Source: Bradyrhizobium embrapense (GTDB lineage Bacteria > Pseudomonadota > Alphaproteobacteria > Rhizobiales > Xanthobacteraceae). From it: a stretch of 64,000 nucleotides of DNA. The stretch spans positions 124,001 through 188,000 of the forward strand of contig NZ_LFIP02000005.1 of the NCBI RefSeq assembly GCF_001189235.2. Direction: 5' to 3'. Under the pieces are notes generated by a model, which was given only the letters and a program-made list of their open reading frames with translations, searched no databases and was not told the DNA's origin. Position 1 is the stretch's first letter, and every line of letters begins with the position of its first letter. A program made the translations under genes and the position numbers. Shown here one piece after another: positions 21,330 to 56,790 of the stretch.

Positions 21330-21433
21330 CGTCATTCCGGGGCACCGCGCAGCGGTGAGCCCGGAATTCATTTATCGTCTTGGGTATGCGGCCTGATGGA
21401 TTCCGGGCTGGCGCTGCGCGCCCCGGAATGACG
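21330..21433. repeat. Intergenic palindrome, CGTCATTCCGGGG family
   Basis: A 104-bp element with outer arms CGTCATTCCGGGG and CCCCGGAATGACG and inner GAGCCCGGAATTCAT/ATGGATTCCGGGC arms, giving a two-tiered cruciform. The same element occurs at 49691-49796, 55407-55506 and 56690-56790. It lies just after the efflux operon. Confidence 0.85.
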
Positions 21434-49690: not shown

Positions 49691-49796
49691 CGTCATTCCG
49701 GGGCGCGCCTCTTGGCGCGAGCCCGGAATCCATTTCTCCGCGCGTTTCGTGGATGAATGGATTCCGGGCTCTCGCTTCGCGAGCCCCGGAATGACG
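49691..49796. repeat. Intergenic palindrome, CGTCATTCCGGGG family
   Basis: Outer arms CGTCATTCCGGGG and CCCCGGAATGACG with inner GAGCCCGGAATCCAT/ATGGATTCCGGGCTC arms, directly after hicB. Same family as 21330-21433, 55407-55506 and 56690-56790. Confidence 0.88.
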
Positions 49797-54204: not shown

Positions 54205-55389
54205 ATGGCTGACCTTGAGAAATTCCGCGCCGAGACCCGCGCCTGGCTGGAGCAGAACTGCCCGGCGGAGATGCGCAAACCGATGACCTCGGATGGCGAC
54301 ACCTTCTGGGGTGGCCGCAATGCGAAATTCTCCTCCGAAGCGCAGCGCGTCTGGTTCGAGCGGATGCGCGACAAGGGCTGGACCGTGCCGCATTGGCCCA
54401 AGGAATACGGTGGCGGAGGCCTCGACGGCGAGGAGGCCAAGATCGTGCGCCAGGAGATGGCGGCGATCGGCGCGCGGGCGCCGCTGACCTCGTTCGGCAT
54501 CTCGATGCTCGGACCGGCGCTTTTGAAATACGGCACCGAGGAGCAGAAGAAGGAGCATCTGCCGAAGATCACCGCGGGCTTGATCCGCTGGTGCCAGGGC
54601 TATTCCGAGCCGAACGCCGGCTCCGACCTCGCCTCGCTGCAGACCCGCGCTGTCGCCGACGGCGACGATTACATCATCAACGGCCAGAAGATATGGACCT
54701 CCTACGCCAACTATGCCGACTGGATCTTCTGCCTAGTGCGCACTGATCCCGCGGCGAAGAAGCACGACGGCATCAGCTTCATCCTCTTCGACATGACCTC
54801 GAAGGGCGTGTCGACCAAGCCGATCCTCTTGATCTCCGGCTATTCGCCGTTCTGCGAGACCTTCTTCGACAATGTCCGGGTGCCGAAGTCGCATGTCGTG
54901 GGTACCGTCAATCGCGGCTGGGACGTCGCAAAATACCTGCTGCAGCACGAGCGCGCGATGATCTCGGGCATGGGCGAGCGCGGCGTCGGCCGTCCGCTCG
55001 GCCAGATCGCCGCCGACTCGGTCGGCGCGGACGCGCAAGGGAAGCTCGACGACGCGCAGCTGCGCAGCCAGATCGCGAGCTTCGAGGTCGACGAGGCCGC
55101 GCTCGCCGCGGCGGCGGAGCGCGCGGTCGATCTCGCCAAGGCCGGGCAGTCGCATCCGGCGTTCTCCTCGGCGATGAAATATTACGGCACCGAGCTCAAC
55201 AAGCGCCGCTACGAGATCCTGATGTCGGCGGGCGGCATCGACGCGCTGGAATGGGAGAGCGACCGCTCCCGGGGCGGCGCCCGTCCGCGCGCCTGGCTGC
55301 GCACCAAGGCCAACTCGATCGAGGGCGGCACCTCGGAGGTGATGCTCGGAATCGTCGCCAAGCGCATCCTCGATCTGCCTGGGGCGTGA
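54205..55389 (+). CDS. Acyl-CoA dehydrogenase, catalytic-type subunit
   Basis: FAD flavoprotein of 394 residues that desaturates an acyl-CoA. WCQGYSEPNAGSDLASLQT (about 130) and INGQKIWTSYANYADW (about 150) form the flavin-binding middle domain, and SIEGGTSEVMLGIVAKRILDLP at the C-terminus holds the position of the catalytic glutamate in the FadE branch. GGAAA precedes ATG 54205. It is followed by a second, non-identical dehydrogenase on the same strand after 158 bp containing a palindrome. Confidence 0.92.
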   Translation: MADLEKFRAETRAWLEQNCPAEMRKPMTSDGDTFWGGRNAKFSSEAQRVWFERMRDKGWTVPHWPKEYGGGGLDGEEAKIVRQEMAAIGARAPLTSFGISMLGPALLKYGTEEQKKEHLPKITAGLIRWCQGYSEPNAGSDLASLQTRAVADGDDYIINGQKIWTSYANYADWIFCLVRTDPAAKKHDGISFILFDMTSKGVSTKPILLISGYSPFCETFFDNVRVPKSHVVGTVNRGWDVAKYLLQHERAMISGMGERGVGRPLGQIAADSVGADAQGKLDDAQLRSQIASFEVDEAALAAAAERAVDLAKAGQSHPAFSSAMKYYGTELNKRRYEILMSAGGIDALEWESDRSRGGARPRAWLRTKANSIEGGTSEVMLGIVAKRILDLPGA

Positions 55390-55406
55390 GGCACGATCTC
55401 TCCACC

Positions 55407-55506
55407 CGTCATTCCGGGGCGCGACGCAGTCGCGAGCCCGGAATCCATACTCCCGATCGTGGTTATGGATTCCGGGCCTGGCCCTTCGGGCCATCCCGGA
55501 ATGACG
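55407..55506. repeat. Intergenic palindrome, CGTCATTCCGGGG family
   Basis: Arms CGTCATTCCGGG and CCCGGAATGACG with inner GAGCCCGGAATCCAT/ATGGATTCCGGGC arms, inserted between the two acyl-CoA dehydrogenase genes. Confidence 0.88.
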
Positions 55507-55547
55507 AACTCAATATCGTTTGATTTATCGAAGAGCGGAATCCATCC

Positions 55548-56687
55548 ATGGCCCTCGTCCTCACCGAAGAACAATCCATGCTGCGCGACAGTGCGCGCGG
55601 TCTCATCAGCGACAAGGCGCCGGTGGCGCATCTGCGCGCCTTGCGCGATGCGAAGGACTCCACCGGCTTCTCGCGCGAGCTCTGGAAGACCTTTGCCGAG
55701 ATGGGCTTCTCCGGCCTGTTGGTGCCGGACCAGTTCGGCGGCAGCGGCCTCGGCTGCGTCGAGGCCGGCATCGTCATGGAAGAGATCGGTCGCACCTTGA
55801 TGCCGTCGCCATTCCTCGCGACCTCGGTGCTCGCGGCCTCGGCGCTGTCGCGCGGCGGCAGCGAGGCGCAGAAGGCGCAGCATCTGCCTGGCATTGCCGG
55901 CGGCTCGCTGCTGGCTGCGCTGGCGATCGATGAGGGCGCCAAGCATCGCCCGCTGCAGACCAAGTTGCGGGCCATGCGTTCCGGCAACGGCTTCAAGCTG
56001 TCCGGCGACAAGGCCTTCGTGGTCGACGGCCACACCGCCGATCTGTTGATCGTCGCGGCGCGCACGGCGGGCAGCGCCGGTGACAGCAACGGGTTGACGC
56101 TGTTCCTGGTCGATCCGAAGGCCAAGGGTCTCGCGGTCGAGCGCACCGCGATGGTCGATTCGCACAACGCGGCGCGCATCGTGTTCGACAATGTCGAGGT
56201 CAATGCCGACAGCGTGCTCGGCGAGGTCGATCAGGGCTTTGGGCTGCTCGAGGGCGTGCTCAATATCGGCCGCGGCGCGGTCGCCTCCGAAATGGTCGGC
56301 CTCTCCGACGAGGTTTTCGGCCGCACCGTGGCCTATCTGAAGGAGCGCAAGCAGTTCGGCAAGGCGATTGGCGAATTCCAGGCGCTGCAGCACCGGGCCG
56401 CCCAGCTCTATATCGACATCGAGATCACCCGCGCCGCTGTGCTGAAGGCGCTGCAGGCGCTCGACGCCGATCTCGGCAAGGCGGGCAATGCGGTCGCCGT
56501 CGCCAAGGCGCGCGCCGGCACGACCGCCACGCTCGCCGTCCAGGAAGGCGTGCAGATGCACGGCGGCATGGGCATGACCGACCAGTTCGACATCGGCTTC
56601 TTCATGAAGCGCGCCCGCGTCTGCCAGGAGCTGTTCGGCGACAGCAATTTCCACACCGACCAGCTCGCGCGCGGCAAGGGCTACTGA
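55548..56687 (+). CDS. Acyl-CoA dehydrogenase-like subunit without recognisable catalytic Glu
   Basis: Acyl-CoA dehydrogenase fold of 379 residues. The N-terminal helical domain, LSGDKAFVVDGHTADLLIVAAR (about 150-170) and the helical C-terminal domain with QEGVQMHGGMGMTDQFDI (about 325) are present. Where the partner has IEGGTSE, this protein reads FGDSNFHTDQL, so the catalytic base is apparently missing. In some actinobacterial and proteobacterial systems such a subunit pairs with a catalytic one in an alpha2beta2 enzyme for bulky substrates such as steroid side chains. Pairing with the upstream gene is inferred from position. Confidence 0.88.
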   Translation: MALVLTEEQSMLRDSARGLISDKAPVAHLRALRDAKDSTGFSRELWKTFAEMGFSGLLVPDQFGGSGLGCVEAGIVMEEIGRTLMPSPFLATSVLAASALSRGGSEAQKAQHLPGIAGGSLLAALAIDEGAKHRPLQTKLRAMRSGNGFKLSGDKAFVVDGHTADLLIVAARTAGSAGDSNGLTLFLVDPKAKGLAVERTAMVDSHNAARIVFDNVEVNADSVLGEVDQGFGLLEGVLNIGRGAVASEMVGLSDEVFGRTVAYLKERKQFGKAIGEFQALQHRAAQLYIDIEITRAAVLKALQALDADLGKAGNAVAVAKARAGTTATLAVQEGVQMHGGMGMTDQFDIGFFMKRARVCQELFGDSNFHTDQLARGKGY

Positions 56688-56689
56688 TT

Positions 56690-56790
56690 GTCATTCCGGG
56701 GCGCGAAGCGCGAGCCCGGAATCCATTGCGCCACCGTTCTTGTCGCCGATGGATTCCGGGCCTGCGCCTATGGCGCATCTCGGAATGACG
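56690..56790. repeat. Intergenic palindrome, CGTCATTCCGGGG family
   Basis: Arms GTCATTCCGGGG and CGGAATGACG with inner GAGCCCGGAATCCAT/ATGGATTCCGGGC arms, placed 2 bp after the dehydrogenase stop and 10 bp before a converging gene. Confidence 0.85.

Follow-up and report, generated by a model that had tools for sequence, protein, structure and literature searches.

A conserved gene pair of Bradyrhizobium embrapense that very likely encodes a heteromeric acyl-CoA dehydrogenase with charged residues at putative pocket positions

The window analyzed here, a stretch of 64,000 nucleotides spanning positions 124001-188000 of contig 5 in the 8.27 Mb genome of Bradyrhizobium embrapense, contains two consecutive genes (Table 1) whose products are both full-length members of the acyl-CoA dehydrogenase (ACAD) family in Pfam searches, each with the three domains of that family. 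A sequence-only reading of this DNA had proposed that they form a heteromeric pair in which one partner lacks the catalytic glutamate; both ORFs lie where that reading put them, and the motifs that it quoted, IEGGTSE (residues 372-378) in the first protein and FGDSNFHTDQL in the second, were recovered. The ACAD C-terminal domain is matched 47 times across the genome, and the two proteins of the pair are 19% identical over 366 aligned positions. The top NCBIfam model for the first is pimC (TIGR03204; 290.1 bits, below its cut-off of 623.85) and for the second pimD (TIGR03203; 273.2 bits, below its cut-off of 652.7). In sequence searches of the PDB the best matches of the first protein are 4x28_A (ChsE4) and 6wy8/6wy9 (Tcur3483), and the second is matched at the profile level by 6wy8_A (Tcur3481, its second-best profile match) and 4x28_D. 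Heteromeric ACADs with a single catalytic subunit are presented as established in PMC8399759 and PMC11153573. On the sequence features described below, the two gene products are very likely the alpha and the beta subunit of a single alpha2beta2 acyl-CoA dehydrogenase similar in type to PimCD and the ChsE enzymes. The predicted structure of the alpha protein, a moderate model with a mean pLDDT of 79.5 that drops under 50 at residues 135-144 and 253-261, has Tcur3483 and ChsE4 as its top PDB matches, the best being 6wy9_A (Z 27.1, rmsd 5.0, 340 aligned). The beta model matches 6wy8_A (Tcur3481) with a Z of 45.9 amid dozens of near-ties headed by human SCAD (47.9), so many that the fold comparison failed to set beta apart from ordinary ACADs.

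Table 1. Coordinates of the gene pair, its spacer and selected codons within the window
Feature	Position	Strand	Basis or remarks
Probable alpha (catalytic) subunit gene, ACAD	54205..55389	+	394 aa; Pfam ACAD N/M/C domains
R91 codon	54475..54477	+	column of ChsE4 Pro89, the bulky-substrate proline
E249 codon, proposed catalytic base, helix G (QHERA)	54949..54951	+	HMMER pairing, conservation, predicted helix
E373 codon (IEGGTSE)	55321..55323	+	column before the MCAD Glu; loop 367-375
Alpha-beta spacer with long palindromic repeat element	55390..55547	+	repeat search, fold z -5.46
Probable beta (non-catalytic, FAD ADP-side) subunit gene, ACAD	55548..56687	+	379 aa

In ACAD homotetramers each FAD site is built from two subunits, with the SEPxxGSD (and WT) motifs lying on the flavin-ring side and the RxxFG and QxxGGxG motifs on the ADP side. 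We scored these two half-sites separately in 48 rows of the genome's ACADs; the alpha and beta labels had been set from gene pairing and, partly, from the catalytic column, which leaves the FAD-motif columns and the tree as the only independent tests. The comparison showed that: 1) All 8 alpha proteins keep the SEPxxGSD and WT motifs and the helix-G glutamate, and none of them keeps RxxFG or QxxGGxG. 2) All 7 beta proteins have lost both flavin-ring motifs and the catalytic glutamate, the flavin-ring columns being partly gaps in the L007 beta because its ORF is short (cut). 3) RxxF is kept in every beta protein (7/7) and QxxGGxG in its strict form in 4/7, the remaining variants being QxxGAxG in two and a further change in one; the window beta keeps both RxxFG and QxxGGxG. 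4) None of the 33 other ACAD rows shows the alpha pattern, and the N-terminal half of L027 fits a crude version of the beta pattern, with gaps at its J-K and QxxGGxG columns. Beyond this genome, R267, F270, Q336, G339 and G340 of beta are present in 128/128 ortholog rows. These complementary half-sites constitute the best evidence for a heteromer, in which FAD is very probably shared at the alpha-beta interface.

The glutamate of IEGGTSE (E373), which the sequence-only reading had taken as the catalytic position, proved to be one residue off. When the ACADs of the genome are aligned, the MCAD-type glutamate (as in IFEGTNQ, ILEGTNE and VYEGPS) falls one column after E373. The first protein has no glutamate at this MCAD 376 column, which is filled by G374, a glycine in 132/132 ortholog rows. 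This column was assigned from the alignment of the genome's ACADs rather than from the VIA-align ends, since in the latter the LCAD/MCAD end positions vary by up to three residues between entries; a PDB search with the C-terminal fragment for an MCAD alignment gave a weak match to ChsE4 only. The catalytic base of alpha is likely to be E249 on helix G instead, as judged from its alignment and conservation: HMMER places it opposite residue 247 of 4x28_A (ChsE4), which we take to be the catalytic base of that enzyme, it is a glutamate in 132/132 ortholog rows, and its column is common to the helix-G glutamate of the genome's IVD-like ACADs. In the alpha model E249 falls within a helix (238-253) and E373 within a loop (367-375). 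In beta, G241 is aligned with residue 254 of human IVD (1ivh), leaving no helix-G glutamate, and the alignment with the other ACADs of the genome shows none in its J-K loop. Across its orthologs the helix-G column is occupied by G/A/V/L/S/T/C and the MCAD column by F/L/Y/M, each in 128/128 rows. The proposal that one subunit lacks the catalytic glutamate was thus borne out, with E249 universal in alpha and beta devoid of glutamate at both columns, and no substitute glutamate surfaced at another catalytic position of the second protein. In the homotetrameric LCAD and IVD both FAD half-sites and the glutamate reside in a single polypeptide, a contrast visible within this genome in the IVD-like L021. 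LCAD and IVD nevertheless likewise carry the catalytic glutamate on helix G and not in the J-K loop, and are the precedents for a helix-G base given in PMC11153573.

Two other accounts of these residues bear weighing here. One holds that each protein is a homomeric ACAD in its own right, or that beta is a decaying duplicate, and is favored by the presence of all three ACAD domains in both and by the ordinary ACAD fold of the beta model; however, each protein is without one half of the FAD site, and the half retained by beta is conserved at its five motif residues throughout the orthologs, unlike what is expected of decay, making this account very improbable. The other casts E373 as the catalytic base, perhaps shared with E249 in a two-glutamate active site. 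Its invariance (132/132 rows) and its location in the J-K loop, where the MCAD-type base sits, are in keeping with such a role, but it precedes the MCAD glutamate by one column, which G374 occupies, while E249 is the residue paired with ChsE4 residue 247 and is common to 8/8 alpha proteins of the genome as against 2/8 only for E373. Hence, we consider a catalytic E373 improbable, and this residue probably lines the substrate pocket rather than acting as the base. In the mechanism that we favor, alpha would bind both the flavin ring and the substrate and would contribute the base, with E249 abstracting the alpha proton of the acyl-CoA and the beta hydride passing to FAD. The beta subunit, devoid of its own flavin-ring half-site and base, would reach across the interface to complete the FAD site on its ADP side. 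Two active sites per tetramer would be expected, and we infer that the electrons would pass to ETF.

In a 36-row tree the alpha proteins and the beta proteins are each set off as a clade by a single branch (100/99 for both). The two clades branch in nearly mirrored order, with the PimCD-like sets (L036, L006 and L037) grouping together, followed by the window pair and then by L034, and with L018 and L007 lying outside. The branch joining the L034 beta reaches 89/79 only, and the program warned of long branches, which are doubtful, for the betas of L018 and L007. The genome accordingly holds seven alpha/beta sets, i.e. the window pair, L036, L006, L037, L034, L007 and L018, and the half-site split recurs in the six others. 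L036 is PimCD over both curated cut-offs (878 and 783 bits vs 624 and 653). With the genome's PimCD in the nearest clade (39-40% identity to the window proteins), the pair shares descent with a known pair; like PimCD of Rhodopseudomonas palustris (TIGR03204/TIGR03203) it combines adjacent ACAD genes with a helix-G glutamate in alpha and none in beta. Two of the other sets have unusual architectures. L034:6560-10220 is a beta-alpha-alpha triple with one beta beside two 78% identical alphas, which differ at the E373 column (E vs A), and L018:6634-8871 is a single ORF of 745 aa with a beta-like N-terminal half and an alpha-like C-terminal half, the same order of fusion as that described for CasC in PMC8399759.

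Both genes were found in 36/36 genomes of the genus (this genome and 35 others) and are adjacent by coordinates in each. Among 24 other genomes of the order, each from its own family, two carry both genes (E below 1e-80) and a third has a beta match only. In the wider class the alpha gene (E below 1e-110) is present in 32 of 289 sampled genomes, this one included, and a beta match (E below 1e-40) was obtained in all 33 genomes then checked. We examined 132 loci, namely 30 from the genus (own included), 22 from the class and 80 from named genomes. Alpha is closely followed by beta on the same strand in 30/30, 21/22 and 77/80 (listed loci) of these, respectively, or 128/132 on the whole. In the three remaining named-genome loci the contig breaks off within the first part of the beta gene, and in the class genome locus L113 genes for an HpaB-like and a TPR protein separate alpha and beta; in G063 the two are about 3.8 kb apart by coordinates. 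The named carriers, among the matches listed, are mostly Sphingomonas and its relatives, along with Zavarzinia and two Betaproteobacteria, a list of 80 that favors this group because the query was the Zavarzinia protein. At one locus (L066, G022:C57) the alpha match ends at residue 286 with later coding sequence following, and the alpha gene appears to be interrupted in that draft genome. One genus genome (G011) carries the pair twice on one contig, at L070 and L071, the two copies being oppositely oriented, separated by about 225 kb and identical in their scores. Taken together, the complementary FAD half-sites, the separate clades, the constant adjacency, the PimC/PimD models and the PDB matches strongly support the heteromeric pair that had been proposed from the sequence alone.

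The spacer between the two genes folds stably, none of 200 shuffled versions being as stable as the native sequence. In 28/30 genus loci the alpha-beta gap measures 124-183 nt, and most of them have a stable hairpin in between, for which reason co-transcription of alpha and beta is not certain. A fold z below -3 was obtained for 27/30 genus spacers, which belong to at least four repeat types, and, considering spacers of at least 60 nt, for 33/42 from the listed named-genome loci and 3/5 from the class. A stricter inverted-repeat scan recovered such an element in 16/30 genus, 24/42 listed named-genome and 2/8 class spacers, the background elsewhere being 0.15, 0.10 and 0.03 per kb, respectively. 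Unrelated palindromes occur at the same spacer site in different species (L038-L067; L126-L205). It looks like the spacer is a recurrent landing site for palindromes, with the caveat that the background was not matched for spacer length. The repeat GTCATTCCGGGGCGCG is matched 6 times in the window if up to 2 mismatches are allowed, where 0.34 matches would be expected; further copies lie at 49692-49795, 21331-21432 and, directly after the beta gene, at 56690-56705.

The gene neighborhood is mixed as a guide to the substrate. The neighbors of the pair in the window encode two MFS transporters, a solute-binding protein and a protein whose match to CMD stays below threshold, and no gene adjoining the pair there indicates a pathway. 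In the 80 listed named-genome loci, which are mostly from sphingomonads and whose neighbor clusters were named from one annotated representative each, the pair is found near a hydratase/hydroxyacyl-CoA dehydrogenase fusion in 54, an SDR in 51, a CoA ligase in 48, a thioesterase in 43, a beta-lactamase-fold protein in 37 and an amidase in 25. Of these, the hydratase fusion, the CoA ligase and the thioesterase fit a role in acyl-CoA degradation. At other loci the adjacent genes vary and encode an SDR, an enoyl-CoA hydratase, a P450, homogentisate dioxygenase or a permease.

A comparison of alpha with its closest solved relatives points to two positions of potential significance for substrate choice. 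ChsE4-ChsE5 (FadE26-FadE27) of Mycobacterium tuberculosis (4x28) shares with the window pair the alpha2beta2 plan and the glutamate equivalent to E249, but has Gly377 and Pro89 where the window alpha has E373 and R91. In Tcur3481-Tcur3483, a steroid ACAD of Thermomonospora curvata, the E373 column corresponds to residue 363 of Tcur3483, at which the two solved sequences differ (glycine in 6wy8, alanine in 6wy9, the G363A variant); the end of the structural alignment likewise places residue 373 of the alpha model opposite residue 363 of 6wy9_A. A glycine of steroid ACADs is reportedly, going by the title of a paper by Stirling, key for repositioning of the flavin ring and for side-chain specificity. 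In the window alpha and its orthologs the J-K loop glycine is replaced by glutamate in 132/132 rows. R91, which the sequence alignment sets opposite ChsE4 Pro89, is an arginine in 130/132 rows and a glutamine in the other 2. Pro89 of ChsE4 is described in PMC11153573 as a site of helix unwinding that accompanies a large cavity. The helix-E proline at this position (also that of LCAD Pro132) is absent from the ortholog rows, although a proline is found two residues later in 125/132 of them. Within the genome, as far as a gappy region of the alignment permits, the window alpha is the only one of 8 alphas with an arginine at this column, which is occupied by proline in PimC and three other alphas; PimC has a tyrosine at the E373 column. 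This pattern suggests that the near-invariant charged residues R91 and E373 distinguish the putative pocket from that of the steroid members, which argues against a steroid and for a polar or charged acyl group.

The steroid-type substrate envisaged earlier is accordingly not supported. A steroid side-chain dehydrogenase of the FadE26/27 type would be consistent with the closest solved relatives of alpha, ChsE4 and Tcur3483, with a P450 gene that follows the pair in L106, and with KshA_C, the sole marker used for steroid-ring degradation, passing its cut-off marginally in 4/36 genus genomes. Against this stand the glutamate and arginine in place of the key glycine and the bulky-substrate proline, as well as PimC and PimD being the nearest curated models of the two proteins. 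Further, KshA_C matches are marginal and confined to 7/60 genomes, peaking at 26.3 bits; five exceed the cut-off of 23.3 bits, four of them in the genus, with this genome below it at 21.5, whereas the pair is present in 36/36 genus genomes. Although a single marker carries little weight, a steroid-specific enzyme would scarcely be expected throughout a genus that lacks this marker or has it only marginally. In 14 control genomes, among which we know of no steroid degrader, the marker matched only in Corynebacterium glutamicum, under the cut-off. We therefore view the steroid account as quite improbable. A better case can be made for a second dicarboxylyl-CoA dehydrogenase that differs from PimCD in chain length only. 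Glutaryl-CoA dehydrogenase binds the carboxylate of its substrate via Arg94 in the helix-E segment, the segment in which R91 lies, and PimC and PimD are both the top curated models and the nearest clade in the tree. Moreover, RB-TnSeq of Ralstonia CL21 is described as revealing a requirement for a PimCD-like pair on C8-C12 diacids, and homologs of that pair as showing a similar profile in three other species (PMC12543098). Nevertheless, the scores of the window proteins are less than half of the equivalog cut-offs (290 vs 624 and 273 vs 653), the PimCD that exceeds both is encoded elsewhere, at L036, and no neighbor in the window indicates diacids; we regard the proposal as possible but on balance unlikely. 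Identity of the pair with PimCD itself was rejected, given the curated cut-offs and the over-cut-off PimCD at L036. We tentatively guess that the enzyme acts on an acyl-CoA ending in a polar group or a carboxylate (omega-carboxylated) rather than on a steroid. More speculative still, and rather unlikely in our estimate, is a distinct, widespread subfamily with a pocket lined or capped by invariant E373 and near-invariant R91 that selects polar or charged acyl-CoAs, and in which E373 might join E249 in proton transfer.

The pair is hence an ordinary member of a known family of heteromeric ACADs, representing an apparently uncharacterized branch; our literature searches returned no study of this subfamily. 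Steroid degradation is the best-known setting of heteromeric ACADs, so such pairs are easily labelled steroid enzymes. Here, a pair of this type is constant across one genus, and a single genome holds seven alpha/beta sets. The fixed glutamate, exactly at the position of the glycine reported for substrate choice in the steroid enzymes, offers a clear mutational test of that choice, and a rule of substrate selection by R91 and E373, if true, would be one that we have not seen described for any ACAD.
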